Origin: Sutcliffiella horikoshii
Lineage (GTDB): Bacteria; Bacillota; Bacilli; Bacillales; Bacillaceae_I
DNA: 64,000 nucleotides
Direction of reading: 5' to 3'
Assembly: GCA_001636495.1 (NCBI GenBank)
Contig: KV440964.1
Span: 2,744,666-2,808,665 of the forward strand
Positions 19,325 to 26,951 of this stretch are shown in pieces. The number at the start of each line of letters is the position of its first letter. Within the stretch, counting starts at the first letter, position 1. Position numbers and translations under genes: made by a program. Under the pieces are notes generated by a model. The model saw only the letters and a program-made list of their open reading frames with translations. It did no database searches and was not told the DNA's origin.

Positions 19325-19771
19325 ATGAAACATTTTATGCCGATATTGATTAAGTTCATCGTCAGTTTTCTAATCTTATCCTTTTTCTTGAATCAGTTTG
19401 CTGCAATTTCTTTCTTAGATATCCTTTTAACAACTGTACTTTTGGTTACTTTGTCGTATTTTGTAGTAGATGATTTGGTTTTGCCGGCAACAAATTATAC
19501 AATTGCTGCAGCATTTGACTTTGTATTTAACTTTGGAATGATCGCGTTTATGGTATATATCCTGACTAATTTAAGTGGGGGATTCTTGTTACCATCTGCG
19601 ATTGCAGCCTTAACAATCACTGTTTTTGAAGTGTTCTTTCATCTATACCTTGTCAAAAGTGTTTTTCCTGATCATCCTAAGAAGGGAAAGAAAAGGGCGG
19701 CTCCAATGGAATTACAAACAGAGTTTTCAGAGGAGTTAAGTGTCCACGAAAAAAAGAAGAGAGAAGACTGA
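19325..19771 (+). CDS. YndM-like DUF2512 membrane protein
   Basis: About 148 residues with four hydrophobic helices (FIVSFLILSFFLNQF, FLDILLTTVLLVTLS, DFVFNFGMIAFMVYIL, FLLPSAIAALTITVF) followed by a charged cytoplasmic tail ending HEKKKRED. This matches the DUF2512/YndM family of Bacillus, for which I know no function. GTG at 19316 overlaps the ribosome site AAAGGAG, so the ATG at 19325 is preferred. It stands alone between two terminators. Confidence 0.75.
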   Translation: MKHFMPILIKFIVSFLILSFFLNQFAAISFLDILLTTVLLVTLSYFVVDDLVLPATNYTIAAAFDFVFNFGMIAFMVYILTNLSGGFLLPSAIAALTITVFEVFFHLYLVKSVFPDHPKKGKKRAAPMELQTEFSEELSVHEKKKRED

Positions 19772-19799
19772 ACCCAATGATTATGTTGGGTTTTTGTTT
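19771..19799 (+). terminator. Terminator of the DUF2512 gene
   Basis: AACCCAA pairs with TTGGGTT around TGATTATG, followed by a T-run. Confidence 0.8.
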
Positions 19800-19812
19800 T
19801 GTCTGTAACAAT

Positions 19813-19842
19813 AAACTGCTCAATAATCGGCAGTTTTTCTTT
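19813..19842 (+). terminator. Second terminator-like hairpin
   Basis: AAACTGC pairs with GCAGTTT around an 10-base loop, then TTCTTTTT. It insulates the following promoter. Confidence 0.6.
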
Positions 19843-19857
19843 TTGAAGTGCTATTAT

Positions 19858-19886
19858 TTGCATGATAGAACAAATGTTCGTATAAT
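19858..19886 (+). promoter_or_regulatory. Sigma-A promoter with an embedded LexA (SOS) box
   Basis: TTGCAT at 19858-19863, a 17-bp spacer and TATAAT at 19881-19886 form a strong promoter. The spacer contains AGAACAAATGTTCG at 19867-19880, which fits the Bacillus LexA/DinR pattern CGAAC-N4-GTTCG in nine of ten fixed positions. Bound LexA would cover the promoter, so the downstream gene should be induced by DNA damage. That last step is inference from the site. Confidence 0.75.
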
Positions 19887-19929
19887 AAAAATGTAGGTAA
19901 ATAGGACCAGTGGAGAGGAAGGGAATAAT

Positions 19930-20880
19930 ATGAAGCAGATGCCGAGTAGAAAACTTACCTTAGACCTACCAGAAATTATTAAGATGTATAAAGATGGAAT
20001 GAGTACTACTAAGATTGCAGAAGCTGGGAACGTTTCACGGAGACATATTTATCAAGTGTTAGTAGATAACGGTGTAGTGCTACGTCCACGGGGGCATTGG
20101 AAGCGAAAGTGCAATATAAATGAAGACTATTTTAAAACTTGGACCCCGAATATGGCATATATACTTGGTTTTTTTCTGGCTGATGGAGTTATTAGTAGAG
20201 AAGCACAAACTGTAAGTATTGCACAAAAGGAAATTGATATTTTAAAGCAGATAAGGGATGAAATAAAATCAGAACAGCCAATTGGCCTATATAAGAATGG
20301 TGTGCACTTTCTTAATATAAACAGCAAAGTTATTAAAGACGACCTGATGAATATCCATGGTTTAACACCGAACAAATCATTAACTGTTAATTTCCCTTAT
20401 ATTCCTGATCAATATATGCACCATTTTGTGAGAGGGTATTTTGATGGAGATGGTAGTATATACAAAAAAGGTAATATGATCAATTTTGTTGGAGGGTCTT
20501 ATTCCTTCATTTTAGACTTTAGAAATTTACTTTACCACAAAGGATACGATCCTATAATCATCAGTAAAAAAACTCACTTCAGAATATATATAAGCGGCAG
20601 AAAAACCATTAAACATTTTGGTGATTGGATATACAAAGATAAATCTCTGTATTTGAAAAGAAAATTTGATATATTCAACCAAGAAAAATCATCTGCTGAA
20701 CAATTAGTAAACAAACCCTCAAAAAAATCTACCCGGCAAAGAGTGTTCCTTAAAGAATTTGAATTCTACAATTCCATAGAAAAGGCATGTTTACATGTGA
20801 ATATAACACTAGATCAGCTTGAGAGTTGGATACAAACCGATGAAAGATTTAATAAAATCCATCTTGCTAAAAAAAATTAA
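19930..20880 (+). CDS. Free-standing LAGLIDADG-type endonuclease with N-terminal HTH
   Basis: 316 residues. Residues about 10-55 form a resolvase-like helix-turn-helix (IIKMYKDGMSTTKIAEAGNV, SRRHIYQVL). Two LAGLIDADG motifs follow: YILGFFLADGVIS near residue 80 and HFVRGYFDGDGSIY near residue 170. Each carries the acidic residue expected to bind metal. The C-terminal 80 residues are basic and may hold another DNA-contact module. AGGAAGGG lies 6 nt before the ATG. It is not inside an intron or intein that I can see. Codon use is more AT-rich than its neighbours, which fits acquisition by transfer. Function as an active nuclease is inferred. Confidence 0.78.
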   Translation: MKQMPSRKLTLDLPEIIKMYKDGMSTTKIAEAGNVSRRHIYQVLVDNGVVLRPRGHWKRKCNINEDYFKTWTPNMAYILGFFLADGVISREAQTVSIAQKEIDILKQIRDEIKSEQPIGLYKNGVHFLNINSKVIKDDLMNIHGLTPNKSLTVNFPYIPDQYMHHFVRGYFDGDGSIYKKGNMINFVGGSYSFILDFRNLLYHKGYDPIIISKKTHFRIYISGRKTIKHFGDWIYKDKSLYLKRKFDIFNQEKSSAEQLVNKPSKKSTRQRVFLKEFEFYNSIEKACLHVNITLDQLESWIQTDERFNKIHLAKKN

Positions 20881-20887
20881 TAATTGG

Positions 20888-20925
20888 AATGTAGAGGAGT
20901 AGTAAATAACTCCTCTACATTTTCG
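20888..20925 (+). terminator. Terminator of the LAGLIDADG gene
   Basis: AATGTAGAGGAG pairs perfectly with CTCCTCTACATT over 12 bp, followed by TTCG. Confidence 0.7.
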
Positions 20926-21359
<434 letters not shown>

Positions 21360-21362
21360 AAA

Positions 21363-21397
21363 AACAACGTCCTAGTATAAGCTGGACGTTTTTTTTG
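21363..21397 (-). terminator. Terminator of the isochorismatase-like gene
   Basis: AACGTCC at 21366-21372 pairs with GGACGTT at 21384-21390. Runs of T occur on both strands. Confidence 0.7.
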
Positions 21398-21399
21398 TA

Positions 21400-21966
21400 T
21401 TAATTTCTTATCATATTTTCTTGTATGAATGCCAATAAATCCTCGGATGTGACAACTTCTGCAAATTCCTGGTTTAATGCGGATAATGCATGGCGATGCA
21501 CTTCTTCCGCCGATAGATGTAAACCATCGTAGGATGTGGCTTCATATGCTGCCGTTGCATCACTACAAACATACGTTCTATACCCCAGATTTCCTGCCAT
21601 TCTTACTGTAGTGGATATACAATGGTTGGAAGTCAGACCAACTACTACTAAGGTTTGATAGCCATTGTTTTTAAGATAGCTATCAAGTTCTGTTCCAATA
21701 AAGCAGCTGTTTACCTTCTTCCGGATGAAGTATTCCTCTTCCAAAGGTTCAAATCCCTTTTTCAATGCAAATCCAGGGTTACTCGGATGAAGCTTGGAGC
21801 TTTGATCCTGAGACACATGCTGTACATGGATAATCGGGTAATCCCTTTGTCTCCATGCCTTTAAAAGTTCTAGCATTCTTAGTTCTGCATCGGGGTTGTT
21901 TCTTTGCCCCCATGATGGATCGTCAAACCCTTTTTGAACATCTACAACGAGTAATACCGGTTTCAA
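21400..21966 (-). CDS. Isochorismatase-like cysteine hydrolase
   Basis: 188 residues of the isochorismatase-like fold. The catalytic Asp lies in VLLVVDVQKGF near the N-terminus. The catalytic Cys lies in VVGLTSNHCISTTVRMAGNL, and a lysine is available in RKKVNSCF. Relatives hydrolyse small amides such as nicotinamide or ureido compounds; the substrate cannot be told here. The open frame extends to 22038, but TTG at 21966 has AGAGAGGG 6 nt upstream and gives the usual family N-terminus. It is probably monocistronic. Confidence 0.8.
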   Translation of the reverse strand: MKPVLLVVDVQKGFDDPSWGQRNNPDAELRMLELLKAWRQRDYPIIHVQHVSQDQSSKLHPSNPGFALKKGFEPLEEEYFIRKKVNSCFIGTELDSYLKNNGYQTLVVVGLTSNHCISTTVRMAGNLGYRTYVCSDATAAYEATSYDGLHLSAEEVHRHALSALNQEFAEVVTSEDLLAFIQENMIRN

Positions 21967-22455: not shown

Positions 22456-24894
22456 TTACTTACTTTCCATACCTTCAGGCGTTTCCACCCACATCTCCAC
22501 GACATCCCCAGCTTCCTGCTGATCCAAGACGAAGGATCCGTTTGAATAACGGTCATTGTTCCGATACGATGAGGCGGCAAGCTTCTCTACCGCACCTTTC
22601 TCTGTTTGAACATAGATGTAGCTTGAAGGCTCCACAAGTTCCACTACTGCTATTTGGTGAGGATTATTCTTCACTTCACGCAGCATAACCAGCCCGCGTT
22701 TAGCGCGTGTGGCTTTATCAAACTCGGTAATTTTCAATTTCTTCACGGCACCACGGTGAGTAGCGACAAACAACATAGCTTTGGATTCTTTATCAAATAC
22801 CAATCCACTAACCACGTGGTCTTTATCTTTAAGGTTGATGCCTTTCACACCTGCTGCACGGGCACCAACTACATTAATTTCTTCTTCGGTAAACCAAAGT
22901 CCATATCCGTTTCTTGTCGCAAGGAAGATGTCCTGAGAACCATCTGTAAGATGAACATTTACAACCATGTCATCCCCTTTAAGGTTAACCGCCATCAATG
23001 GCTTCGAATAGCGTTGCGCTTTATAGGCACTCAGCTCTGTTTTCTTAACCATCCCATTACGGGTGACAAACAATAAGAATTTAGGTTCCTCGAAATTGCT
23101 CACAGGTATTGCTTTTATGATGGATTCATCACGATCAATTGGGACGATGTTTGCGACGTGCTGACCCATGTCCTTCCAACGGATATCTGGTAGTTCATGA
23201 ACAGGTAAATACAAATAGTTACCTTTGTTAGTGAACAATAGCAACGTTTGTGTTGTATTAATATCCATCTTGGATATGATTCTGTCCGTTTCTTTCATGC
23301 CGAAATCTTGGCCATTGGAGGCAGAGAAAGAACGTAGACTGGTACGTTTGACATACCCATCCTTCGTTACCGTCACAATGACATCCTCGGATGGAATCAT
23401 TACTTCCAAGTTGATCTTGATTTCTTCAATCTGGTCCTGGATTCTCGAACGTCGGTCATTTGTATAGAGCTTTTTCACTCGTTTCAGGTCCGATTTGATG
23501 ACAGAGAACAACTTTTTCTCGCTTGCAAGAATTGCTTCCAATTCCGCAACCTTCTTAGCTAGTTCATCTGCCTCCGCCTGCAGTGCTGTGATATCTGTAT
23601 TCGTCAATCGGTATAACTGCAAAGACACGATTGCTTCTGCTTGCGGCTCTGTAAAAGTGAACTTGGCAATCAAGTTATCTTTTGCATCCCGTTTATCTTT
23701 AGAAGCACGAATTGCAGCAATCACTTCGTCCAGAATAGATAGTGCTTTCATCAAGCCTTCTACCACATGTTGACGTTCTTTCGCTTTATTGAGCTCAAAC
23801 TTAGAACGGTTGGAGATTACTTCTTTCTGGTGATCTATGTATGCATCCAAGAAGTGTGGCAATCCCATTAAAGTCGGGCGCTTTTTATAGATCGCAACCA
23901 TGTTGAAGTTAAATGTAATTTGCAAATCGGTATTTTTGTATAAATAATTCAAAATACCATTTGCATCTGCTTCTTTTTTCAGTTCAATGACAACACGAAG
24001 ACCAGTTCGGTCGGTTTCGTCACGAACCTCTGAAATGCCATCCACTTTTTTATCATAACGAAGCTCATCCATTTTCTTAACTAGGTTTGCTTTGTTTACT
24101 TCATATGGAACCTCTGTGATGACAATCTGCTGCTTGCCGCCACGGATATCCTCGACTTCAGCTAGACCGCGGACGATGATTTTACCTTTGCCAGTTTCAT
24201 AGGCTTTTTTGATTCCTTCTACCCCTTGAATAATACCACCAGTAGGGAAATCCGGTCCTTTGATGACGGTCATTAACTCATCCACACTAACAGAAGGGTT
24301 GTCAATGCGCATGATGGTCGCATCGATTACTTCACCAAGATGGTGAGGTGGAATGTCTGTTGCATAACCGGCAGAAATTCCGGTAGACCCGTTTACCAGC
24401 AAGTTCGGATACATCGCAGGAAGAACAACAGGCTCCTGAGACGTATCATCGAAGTTGGGGATGAAATCGACTGTTTTTTTATCAAGATCACGCAAAAGCT
24501 CGGAAGCAATCGGTGATAACCTTGCTTCCGTATAACGCATTGCTGCTGGGGGATCGCCATCGATACTACCGTTGTTTCCGTGCATCTCGATAAGCATATT
24601 CCGTACCTTCCAGTCCTGACTCATCCGGACCATCGCATCATACACGGAGGAGTCTCCATGTGGATGATAGTTACCGATTACGTTACCGACCGTTTTGGCG
24701 GATTTACGGAACGGTTTATCGTGTATATTCCCTTCCGCATACATGGCATATAAAATACGGCGTTGCACCGGCTTAAGTCCATCACGTGCATCTGGTAATG
24801 CACGCTCCTGGATGATGTATTTACTGTAACGTCCAAATCGGTCGCCTAAAACTTCCTCTAGGGGTAGGTCGTGAAATTTCTCTGTCTGTGTCAT
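22456..24894 (-). CDS. parC: DNA topoisomerase IV subunit A
   Basis: 812 residues, the length expected for ParC of Bacillus. The catalytic tyrosine lies in AAMRYTEARL. The quinolone-determining region reads YHPHGDSSVYDAMVRMSQDW with the usual serines. The C-terminal beta-pinwheel repeats (for example VTKDGYVKRTSLRSF and ATRNGYGLWFTEEE) bend DNA. It cuts and rejoins DNA to decatenate sister chromosomes. It follows parE after 3 bp. It is told from GyrA by its pairing with parE and its pinwheel sequence. Confidence 0.95.
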   Translation of the reverse strand: MTQTEKFHDLPLEEVLGDRFGRYSKYIIQERALPDARDGLKPVQRRILYAMYAEGNIHDKPFRKSAKTVGNVIGNYHPHGDSSVYDAMVRMSQDWKVRNMLIEMHGNNGSIDGDPPAAMRYTEARLSPIASELLRDLDKKTVDFIPNFDDTSQEPVVLPAMYPNLLVNGSTGISAGYATDIPPHHLGEVIDATIMRIDNPSVSVDELMTVIKGPDFPTGGIIQGVEGIKKAYETGKGKIIVRGLAEVEDIRGGKQQIVITEVPYEVNKANLVKKMDELRYDKKVDGISEVRDETDRTGLRVVIELKKEADANGILNYLYKNTDLQITFNFNMVAIYKKRPTLMGLPHFLDAYIDHQKEVISNRSKFELNKAKERQHVVEGLMKALSILDEVIAAIRASKDKRDAKDNLIAKFTFTEPQAEAIVSLQLYRLTNTDITALQAEADELAKKVAELEAILASEKKLFSVIKSDLKRVKKLYTNDRRSRIQDQIEEIKINLEVMIPSEDVIVTVTKDGYVKRTSLRSFSASNGQDFGMKETDRIISKMDINTTQTLLLFTNKGNYLYLPVHELPDIRWKDMGQHVANIVPIDRDESIIKAIPVSNFEEPKFLLFVTRNGMVKKTELSAYKAQRYSKPLMAVNLKGDDMVVNVHLTDGSQDIFLATRNGYGLWFTEEEINVVGARAAGVKGINLKDKDHVVSGLVFDKESKAMLFVATHRGAVKKLKITEFDKATRAKRGLVMLREVKNNPHQIAVVELVEPSSYIYVQTEKGAVEKLAASSYRNNDRYSNGSFVLDQQEAGDVVEMWVETPEGMESK

Positions 24895-24897
24895 CTG

Positions 24898-26868
24898 TTA
24901 TACCTCCTCAGTTGCGACCAACAAGTTATCATTTTCTAAAATATTAGGATCTTCTTCCAACCCAAAAGCTACATGACTTTCAATCCACTTACGTCTTGGT
25001 TCCACTTTATCACCCATAAGCGTAGTCACACGGCGTTCTGCACGGGCTGCATCATCGATTCGTACGCGAATAAGGGTACGAGTATCAGGATCCATCGTTG
25101 TCTCCCACAGTTGGTCCGCATTCATCTCTCCAAGACCTTTATAACGCTGGATAGTGTAGCCACGCCCAATCTTTTGGATGGCACCCTGTAGTTCCTCATC
25201 TGACCATGCATATTCCAATATCTCTTTCTTCCCTGTCCCTTTGCTCACTTTATAAAGAGGAGGAAGTGCAATGAACACTTTTCCAGCTTCAATAAGCGGC
25301 TTCATATAACGATAGAAGAAGGTCAGAAGCAGCACCTGAATGTGTGCACCATCTGTATCGGCATCGGTCATGATGACGACTTTGTCATAGTTTATGTCAC
25401 CCACAGAAAAGTCCGGGCCTACTCCTCCGCCTATTGCGTGGATAATCGTATTGATTTCTTCGTTTTTAAAAATATCCGCAAGTTTTGCTTTTTCGGTATT
25501 GATTACTTTCCCTCGAAGTGGCAAGACTGCTTGAAAACGGCGATCACGTCCTTGTTTTGCAGAACCGCCTGCAGAGTCACCCTCCACCAGATAAATTTCA
25601 TTCTTTTGGGGATTACGGGATTGTGCAGGTGTCAGCTTACCACTCAACATAGCGTCAGAACGCTTTCGTTTCTTGCCGCTCCGAGCATCTTCTCGGGCCT
25701 TACGGGCTGCTTCTCTTGCTTGGAAAGCTTTTATGGATTTTTTAACAAGCATCGAACTTGTTTCCGGATTTTCCTCGAGGAAGTAGGCTAGATGTTCTGA
25801 AACCACACTATCCACAGCGGAACGGGCCTCACTTGTCCCTAGTTTCCCTTTCGTTTGTCCTTCAAATTGCAGGAGTTCCTCGGGAATTCGTACAGAAATA
25901 ATGGCAGAAAGTCCTTCTCGGATATCTGAACCATCCAGGTTTTTATCTTTTTCCTTCAAAAGGCTCACTTTTCTTGCGTATTCGTTAAAGATACGGGTCA
26001 TTGCCGTTTTAGCCCCCGCTTCATGAGTCCCGCCATCTTTCGTCCTTACATTGTTTACAAAGGACAGGATGGTTTCGGAATAACCATCATTAAATTGAAA
26101 CGCGAAATCAATTTCAATCCCGTTCTGGGCACCCTCCAATGAAACGACATTATGTAAGGAGTCCTTCTCCTCGTTAAGGTAGGAAACAAACGCTTCTATC
26201 CCGCTCTCATAATGAAATACTTCTTTGACTGAATTTCGTTCATCGTTAAGTTCTATTTTCAAACCCTTAAGCAAAAAGGCTGATTCTCGAAGACGTTCAC
26301 ACAAAGTTTCAAAGTTATAGGTTGTGGTACTGAAGATAGTTGTATCCGGTTTGAAATGAATGGTAGTACCTGTTTGATTGGTTGTCCCGATCTTCTCCAA
26401 GGTAGTGACAGGCTTTCCACCATTTTCAAAACGCTGTTCATAGACAATGCCATCCCGCTTGATTGTTACAGTCAACCATTCGGACAAAGCATTTACTACT
26501 GAGGCACCTACACCGTGTAGCCCTCCACTTGTTTTATATCCACCTTGACCAAACTTTCCACCTGCGTGTAATACGGTTAAAATCACTTCGGGGGTAGGTT
26601 TTCCCATCTTGTGCATTCCGGTAGGCATTCCTCGGCCTTTATCCTTCACGCTTATGCTGTTATCTTTGTGTATCGTCACAATGATATGATCCCCAAATCC
26701 ACCTAATGCTTCATCGACGGAATTATCAAGGATTTCGTATACAAGGTGATGAAGACCTCTGCTGTCCGTGCTTCCAATATACATACCAGGACGTTTACGT
26801 ACAGCTTCAAGACCCTCTAATACCTGTATCGCATCATCGTTATAATCAAACGTATTTTTTGCCACCAA
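24898..26868 (-). CDS. parE: DNA topoisomerase IV subunit B
   Basis: About 656 residues. The GHKL ATPase shows YEILDNSVDEALGG and GLHGVGASVVNALS. The Toprim domain shows EGDSAGGSAKQGRD and DADTDGAH. The C-terminus RRVTTLMGDKVEPRRKWIES is typical of the GyrB/ParE family. It provides ATP-driven strand capture for ParC. The ATG at 26874 overlaps the ribosome site AAAGGGG. TTG at 26868 (7 nt spacing) or GTG at 26865 (10 nt) are the real candidates; the GTG start would best match the usual M-A-x N-terminus. Confidence 0.94.
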   Translation of the reverse strand: MVAKNTFDYNDDAIQVLEGLEAVRKRPGMYIGSTDSRGLHHLVYEILDNSVDEALGGFGDHIIVTIHKDNSISVKDKGRGMPTGMHKMGKPTPEVILTVLHAGGKFGQGGYKTSGGLHGVGASVVNALSEWLTVTIKRDGIVYEQRFENGGKPVTTLEKIGTTNQTGTTIHFKPDTTIFSTTTYNFETLCERLRESAFLLKGLKIELNDERNSVKEVFHYESGIEAFVSYLNEEKDSLHNVVSLEGAQNGIEIDFAFQFNDGYSETILSFVNNVRTKDGGTHEAGAKTAMTRIFNEYARKVSLLKEKDKNLDGSDIREGLSAIISVRIPEELLQFEGQTKGKLGTSEARSAVDSVVSEHLAYFLEENPETSSMLVKKSIKAFQAREAARKAREDARSGKKRKRSDAMLSGKLTPAQSRNPQKNEIYLVEGDSAGGSAKQGRDRRFQAVLPLRGKVINTEKAKLADIFKNEEINTIIHAIGGGVGPDFSVGDINYDKVVIMTDADTDGAHIQVLLLTFFYRYMKPLIEAGKVFIALPPLYKVSKGTGKKEILEYAWSDEELQGAIQKIGRGYTIQRYKGLGEMNADQLWETTMDPDTRTLIRVRIDDAARAERRVTTLMGDKVEPRRKWIESHVAFGLEEDPNILENDNLLVATEEV

Positions 26869-26951
26869 AAACATACCCCTTTCAATGCTACTGCCAATAA
26901 ATCTTTATGTATAAGTAAAACTGTTTAAGTAAACGCATTTGTCGTTTCCCA

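Follow-up and report, generated by a model that had tools for sequence, protein, structure and literature searches.

We describe a free-standing LAGLIDADG-type nuclease gene of Sutcliffiella horikoshii that is preceded by a LexA-type box and lies next to a site resembling dif, and we find that its homologues occupy a near-fixed position and orientation beside dif. The gene was found in a stretch of 64,000 nucleotides, which we call the window. In our view, it is probably an SOS-controlled mobile homing cassette that targets dif or a sequence overlapping it and that is seated beside this target. Stated more generally, we consider it fairly likely that the nuclease and its DNA-binding module are dedicated to dif and switched by the SOS response, be it as the first dif-targeting homing gene or as a host factor that cuts or guards dif as chromosome dimers arise by recombination. 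The conserved adjacency to dif, an altered dif half-site, a ribbon-helix-helix (RHH) partner protein, and a C-terminal helix-turn-helix (HTH) domain were all unforeseen by the initial annotation of this DNA.

That annotation had placed a LexA box within the 17-bp spacer of a TTGCAT/TATAAT promoter and a free-standing gene for a protein with an HTH and two LAGLIDADG motifs behind it. Re-read from the letters of the window, the promoter coordinates agree, the box being the last 14 bp of the spacer, and the gene is confirmed as a free-standing unit with its own promoter, ribosome-binding site, start, stop, and hairpin (Table 1). The promoter scanner returned an overlapping reading, TTTGCA/18/TATAAT, scored at 10 of 12. 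An origin of the window gene in an intron or intein was rejected on account of its own promoter, start, stop, and terminator-like hairpin. A scan with Rfam, which covered positions 19700 to 21500 of the window locus, likewise returned no match reaching the gathering score that would place the gene inside an intron; its three weak matches all fell below that score, with the best, SpF39_sRNA, reaching 37 bits against 60. The gene is single-copy in the genome from which the window derives. A hairpin similar to that upstream of the promoter was seen by eye in 9 of 10 sequences compared from the genus, L073 being the exception, and the gene further upstream varies.

Table 1. Features of the nuclease locus, numbered by position in the window (protein domains by residue)
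Feature	Position	Strand	Basis or remark
Hairpin, terminator-like, 5' of promoter	19813..19836	+	
AAGTGC-N8-GCA motif, overlapping the -35 hexamer	19846..19862	+	by eye
-35 hexamer, TTGCAT	19858..19863	+	sequence; scanner gives an overlapping reading
Promoter spacer, 17 bp	19864..19880	+	sequence; final 14 bp are AGAACAAATGTTCG
LexA/SOS box, AGAACAAATGTTCG	19867..19880	+	motif match; kept in 74/80 homologues
-10 hexamer, TATAAT, abutting the 3' end of the LexA box	19881..19886	+	sequence and scanner
Shine-Dalgarno-like sequence, GGAGAGGAAGGG	19912..19923	+	
Nuclease open reading frame, 316 aa; ATG 19930, stop 20878-20880	19930..20880	+	
Nuclease protein, 316 aa: HTH; LAGLIDADG 1 (D85); LAGLIDADG 2 (D174); C-terminal four-helix domain	HTH, residues 8-45; four-helix domain, residues 269-315		four-helix domain from model
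Hairpin, terminator-like, 3' of nuclease gene	20886..20923	+	
dif-like site, AGTGCCTATAATCGATATTATGTCTACC	20937..20964	-	comparison with B. subtilis dif; sole R1 match in genome
Palindromic element, 35 bp, about GTCTCA-N-AAGTATACTT-N-TGAGAC	20985..21019	.	alignment

Pfam recovers LAGLIDADG_3 (1.4e-13) and a resolvase-type HTH_7 (4.5e-07) in the window protein. In the AlphaFold model (mean pLDDT 88, pTM 0.68), two LAGLIDADG units lie between an HTH at the N terminus and a four-helix domain at the C terminus, and the Foldseek neighbors of the model in the PDB include the TliVMA intein, I-Tsp061I, WhiA, I-SceI, and I-DmoI. Homologues were gathered from an order-level sample of 397 genomes with a cutoff of E up to 1e-20, yielding a set of 80 loci (79 fetched and oriented loci plus the window). 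The alignment and the tree each comprise 68 of the 80 proteins, with a 39-member subset of the alignment also being used, and all 68 full-length members aligned have D85, D174, Q99, and K149. Alignment and model together point to two LAGLIDADG motifs with predicted catalytic acids. Two clades are seen in the tree; splitting the proteins by identity at 41% assigns 52 to clade A and 28 to clade B, with the long-branched L128 belonging to B by this split and lying near A in the tree. The C-terminal domain is frequent in clade A and is missing from clade B in the alignment. That of the window protein, in which Pfam itself finds no C-terminal HTH, aligns with HTHs that Pfam detects in relatives, namely, in L118 (HTH_28, residues 270 to 304) and weakly in L125 and L109. 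A first guess by eye, that it is a terminase-like HTH, was rejected, since Pfam reports general HTH or transposase-type domains only, with Terminase_5 at 0.15 in L118. Selection is purifying, with dN/dS values of 0.09 to 0.30 in 10 chosen pairs. An open frame of 240 aa is missing from at least 12 of the 80 copies, and some of the broken frames are perhaps draft-assembly errors.

The box AGAACAAATGTTCG is one mismatch from CGAACNNNNGTTCG, which we take to be the LexA box consensus. A lone LexA-type box in 64 kb is within chance: 14 boxes with two or fewer mismatches were found in the window against 14.85 expected. Its significance hence comes from its position abutting the -10 hexamer and from its conservation, and we therefore tested the latter. 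A contig scan provided 31 named relatives (from Sutcliffiella, Bacillus, Halobacillus, Virgibacillus, Fictibacillus, and others), of which Sutcliffiella horikoshii biET1 is the nearest at 79%; 30 of them, L036 being the exception, have a box with two or fewer mismatches 35 to 136 bp before the match. Across the order, 74 of the 80 loci have such a box within a 310-bp stretch surrounding the inferred start, versus 122 of 1,424 random 310-bp windows from the same loci; control windows overlapping the nuclease gene were skipped here and in the dif test below. The question of whether homologues keep the SOS box, which the initial annotation had posed as a check, can thus be answered affirmatively for both sets. 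The boxes usually touch a TATAAT-like -10 hexamer and are present in both clades, down to 31% identity. Six loci fail the test: L082, L092, and L136 have no 240-aa frame, L128 is very divergent, and L084 and L112 have open frames; at L092, a box with three mismatches stands ahead of a TATAAT. Both LexA and RecA were found in the host, whose SOS genes have boxes of similar quality at lexA (CGAACTTATGTTTG and CGAACGTATATTCT) and recA (CGAATGGATGTTCG). Like the members of the Bacillus LexA regulon, the window gene carries a box of the GAAC-N4-GTTC type over its promoter, as at the host lexA and recA genes. Judged from its sequence, a conserved box overlapping the promoter marks the gene as a predicted member of the LexA regulon, and we infer that DNA damage would induce the nuclease. 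Separately, the AAGTGC-TATTATTT-GCA motif over the -35 hexamer was seen by eye to recur in clade A promoters of several genera; it is possibly a second operator or the binding site of the nuclease itself.

The dif site is widely conserved, normally occurs once per chromosome, and serves segregation after recombination. The noncoding stretch just 3' of the nuclease gene is conserved in genus mates without the gene, and its first 28 bp are dif-like. With what we take to be the B. subtilis dif sequence as the reference, the window site, which begins after a gap of 56 bp from the gene end, matches in the reverse orientation. It differs from the B. subtilis dif at 6 of 22 arm bases, versus 1 in the gene-free genus mates L175, L177, and L178, and its half-site toward the gene reads TTATGTCTACC in place of TTATGTAAACT. 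The B. subtilis dif string occurs in PMC3025954. Across the window, the cumulative GC skew reaches its maximum in the 18- to 22-kb interval and declines thereafter, and this turn at the dif-like site is as expected for the terminus. parC and parE (NCBIfam) are found at 22459-26874, starting 1.5 kb past dif, and a parC cluster lies within about 6 kb in 29 of the 80 fetched loci. R1, a model trained without base pairs on 31 dif regions, detects a dif region in 357 of the 397 genomes, with a single match in most and one in the genome of the window.

A dif core is present no more than 700 bp downstream of the gene and in the same orientation at 69 of the 80 loci, both strands of which were searched, compared with 11 of 588 control windows (20 of 588 if either orientation is counted in the controls). 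With three or fewer mismatches, the contrast is 51 of 80 loci versus 0 of 588 controls. The R1 model adds L101, L122, L130, and L138, all in the same orientation, bringing the loci with a dif-like site to 73 of 80, and the adjacency holds across genera whose other neighbors differ. The position and orientation of the gene beside dif are hence nearly fixed. A simple hot spot at the terminus would leave the constant orientation, the short distance, and the altered half-site described below unexplained. The seven loci with no dif nearby are L070, L090, L104, L114, L128, L135, and L136; L135 has solely a weak core in the other orientation, and dif lies at about 8 kb in L090 and at 1.3 kb in L104, where the gene is truncated. 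In L070 (G012), the coordinates put dif about 18 kb away from the gene, which is broken there. A search upstream of the gene detected no half-dif at any of the 80 loci at the thresholds used, so the gene is not inserted into a split site in the manner of a classical homing gene. Some 20 to 30 bp past dif, nearly all sequences compared, from carriers and noncarriers alike, have the 35-bp palindrome, which is perhaps a terminus or Xer accessory site.

Among 70 carriers, 47 have an altered dif half-site on the side toward the gene, versus 3 among 66 noncarriers (p=2.5e-15), a comparison that takes in 70 of the 80 carriers by a search in one orientation, with L101, L122, L130, and L138 left out, and in which the 66 noncarrier sites are a nonrandom set (61 from the better-scoring R1 matches listed and 5 from genus mates, with genomes having only the RHH gene left out). 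In 63 of those 66, the five gene-facing bases are GTTTA or GTTAA. When carriers are limited to those among the R1 matches listed, 26 of 40 are altered versus 3 of 66 (p=1.2e-11), and the remainder of the dif core in carriers among these matches has 2.17 mismatches versus 0.80 in noncarriers (p=9e-7). Adding the 12 RHH-only loci, 11 of them altered, to the noncarriers changes their count to 14 of 78. Alongside the canonical arm TTATGTAAACT, the carrier types TTATGTCTACC and CCCCGAACATAA are found; GTAGA is the commonest arm in clade A (17 carriers from 11 families), and clade B arms start with CC in 18 of 26 cases, mostly with an ACGCCCC end behind a separate RHH gene. By the half-site assignment in PMC5357621, the altered arm would correspond to the RipX/XerD side. 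The outer half-site is unaltered in 23 of the 70 carriers, 20 of which have frames of at least 240 aa. Since these 20 are among 60 intact carriers, the altered half-site cannot be the general or the whole means of self-protection. The idea that it marks an intact nuclease was likewise rejected, as the altered arm accompanies 40 of 60 intact copies and 7 of 10 broken ones. The altered arm could instead be a passive end of the transferred segment.

Eighteen clade B loci have, 2 to 117 bp behind the nuclease gene, a co-directional gene for a protein of about 123 aa, both halves of which match Arc-like repressors of the RHH type. In G021, G122, and G223, the RHH domain is fused to the nuclease. 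The RHH protein occurs in 33 of the 397 genomes and is not present in that of the window. L084 (G066) has the RHH gene before, rather than after, the nuclease gene. Additionally, there are 12 solitary loci (L180 to L191) with no intact nuclease beside the RHH gene, among which L191 is a second RHH copy in G244 and L181 is a near-identical locus in G051. All 12, searched in one orientation, have a dif-like core 25 to 437 bp downstream; the cores of L181 and L191 are weaker and have no R1 match, and L184 has a poor core yet an R1 match. The arm has a GCCCC-type end in 10 of the 12, is partial in L180, and is canonical in L190. Nuclease remnants are found in G329, G037, and G245, with G329 and G037 combining a broken nuclease, an RHH gene, and an altered dif. 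Regulation of the solitary RHH genes by a LexA box was considered and rejected: a box with two or fewer mismatches within 250 bp was found for 1 of 12 (L182, at 103 bp). The sequences of the solitary loci fit a scenario in which the nuclease was lost and the altered site was left behind.

The nuclease gene has a patchy distribution, being present in roughly a fifth of the species sampled in the order: a homologue is found in 80 of the 397 genomes and 36 of 135 genera, with a single gene per genome, which is split into two pieces in five cases. A clade B query against 398 genomes of the phylum matched three. Two belong to the order; the remaining one, G666, lies outside it, is a weak match (5.1e-13), and lacks a convincing LexA box. 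Within clade A, tree branches mostly correspond to families, so much of the inheritance there is vertical, whereas families are mixed in clade B. G316 and G256, from different genera, share a cassette of 96.8% DNA identity over 867 bp, compared with 72% in the parC region, with the shared stretch beginning about 170 to 200 bp before the gene. This is the clearest case of transfer; the G256 copy (L114) has a truncated end, and no dif is found on its 5.6-kb contig. Between G316 and G336, the cassette, dif, and palindrome are 89.8% identical over 1,231 bp versus 76% for the parC region. By these comparisons, the cassette has moved between genera in at least some cases. The empty site in G005 and the occupied one in G016 have the same neighbors: gene C15 to the left, and dif and C9 to the right. 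The mobile-element option of the initial annotation thus gains from the transfer between genera and from this empty/occupied pair, but the left border in G016 is not clean, there being extra DNA, by eye a remnant of gene C11, between C15 and the promoter. The left boundary also differs between the pairs compared. L118 and L129, whose flanks are 94 to 95% identical, have the 3' end of the gene replaced up to the edge of dif; the C-terminal module hence differs between these close relatives, and the difference stops at the dif edge. An argument for spread from changing neighbors alone was dropped because dif itself is a fixed neighbor. Carriage as prophage or plasmid cargo was also rejected, since a search of 50,697 phage and 72,556 plasmid records turned up no close relatives; the 139 phage and 11 plasmid matches all have less than 60% identity, and those among the matches listed are at or below about 33%.

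Taking these findings together, we infer a cycle of dif cleavage, self-protection, and copying by break repair in which the RHH protein would also have a role. The proposed cassette would consist of one gene (two in one subclade) and would home to dif, where chromosome dimers are resolved. LexA would repress the nuclease gene, and DNA damage would lead to production of the nuclease while RecA and double-strand-break repair are active. Guided by its flanking HTH modules in clade A or by the RHH partner protein in clade B, the nuclease would cut a normal dif on a chromosome without the cassette. Repair would then copy the promoter, the gene, and often the altered outer dif half-site from the carrier, and the dif so occupied might be less readily cut again.

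The main rival to a homing cassette is a host function at dif. As a domesticated factor, the damage-induced nuclease would, at times of frequent SOS-driven recombination and delayed division, process terminus DNA or chromosome dimers at dif or in its vicinity, and losses of the gene would reflect dispensability. We regard this as unlikely, though worth serious consideration. In its favor, the regulation and position are conserved, selection is purifying, inheritance in clade A is largely vertical within families, and parC lies within about 6 kb in 29 of the 80 loci. However, it sits poorly with the presence of the gene in only 80 of the 397 genomes of the order, with a single weak match outside the order among the 398 phylum genomes (clade B query), and with the broken copies, the transfer between genera, and the more deviant dif sites of carriers. 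A more improbable alternative is an IMEX-like element integrated at dif by the host Xer recombinases, with the nuclease as cargo or stabilizer. The right junction does fall within one half of the dif site, and the half toward the gene often has an element-specific sequence, as in a hybrid attachment site. Yet the cassette has no recombinase gene, its left boundary varies between pairs, and neither a second dif-like site within 5 kb nor a half-site within 1.5 kb upstream was found at the 80 loci at the thresholds used; the loci have a single dif-like site and not the two flanking ones of an IMEX.

Some phage infections trigger SOS induction, and distant phage kin exist (phrog_4645; 139 phage records), both of which could speak for a defense or immigration control nuclease induced by damage or phage and persisting at the terminus by chance. 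We consider this very unlikely, as it leaves the linkage to dif unexplained and as PADLOC, run at E 0.01 on a nuclease from each of the two clades and on one RHH protein, returned 0 families; annotation of neighbors covered 10 proteins. The repair or defense role that had been suggested as the other option for this gene accordingly finds no PADLOC family among these three proteins, and the findings agree better with spread at a single fixed place on the chromosome. WhiA regulators have degenerate LAGLIDADG active sites. That the nuclease is, like these, solely a DNA-binding regulator built on the LAGLIDADG fold is suggested by a weak WhiA match and by the presence of WhiA among the Foldseek neighbors, but it is hardly probable when the catalytic Asp of both motifs is invariant (68 of 68). 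The retention of D85 and D174 in all of these likewise sets the family apart from WhiA.

The proposed homing cassette can be compared with several known systems. Among phage relatives are the free-standing HTH-LAGLIDADG endonucleases of PHROG 4645, with kin in Staphylococcus and Brevibacillus phages, which match residues 12 to 251 (E=2.3e-47), a span that includes the HTH and LAGLIDADG part and not the C-terminal domain; identity is 30% or less in the best 20 of 139 matches, and some are annotated as endonuclease or DOD homing endonuclease. I-DmoI and I-SceI are intron encoded, and I-Tsp061I is so according to its PDB title. With these three, the window protein shares two LAGLIDADG units and acidic active sites; unlike them, it is free-standing, SOS-boxed, placed beside dif, and furnished with extra DNA-binding modules. 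It resembles WhiA in combining an HTH with a LAGLIDADG fold and differs in keeping the catalytic residues, in the N-terminal placement of the HTH, and in belonging to a cassette transferred between genera. IMEX elements (CTX-phi, TLC-phi, and the gonococcal genomic island) are likewise found at dif and introduce a half-site of deviant sequence there, and PMC5357621 describes them as carrying a dif-like attP and using XerCD; the cassette, in contrast, has a single dif-like site found and a size of about 1.0 to 1.5 kb. The literature searched, which covers subscription journals thinly, yielded no report of a LAGLIDADG protein under LexA/SOS control in Bacillus and no homing endonuclease that targets dif/Xer or the replication terminus; PMC8987985, in its accessible part, is unrelated to a homing gene at dif. 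The statement that no system of this type has been described hence stands for this literature, with an unseen report being possible.

If the proposed homing cassette is real, a selfish gene aimed at dif would have a target that is hard for its hosts to lose, and with its expression under SOS control, cutting would coincide with the availability of break repair. Homing genes, SOS regulation, and Xer/dif would be linked here in a combination absent from the literature searched. The variant dif sites of carriers would also form a natural collection for studies of Xer, and the nuclease itself would point to a new family of site-specific nucleases inducible by damage.
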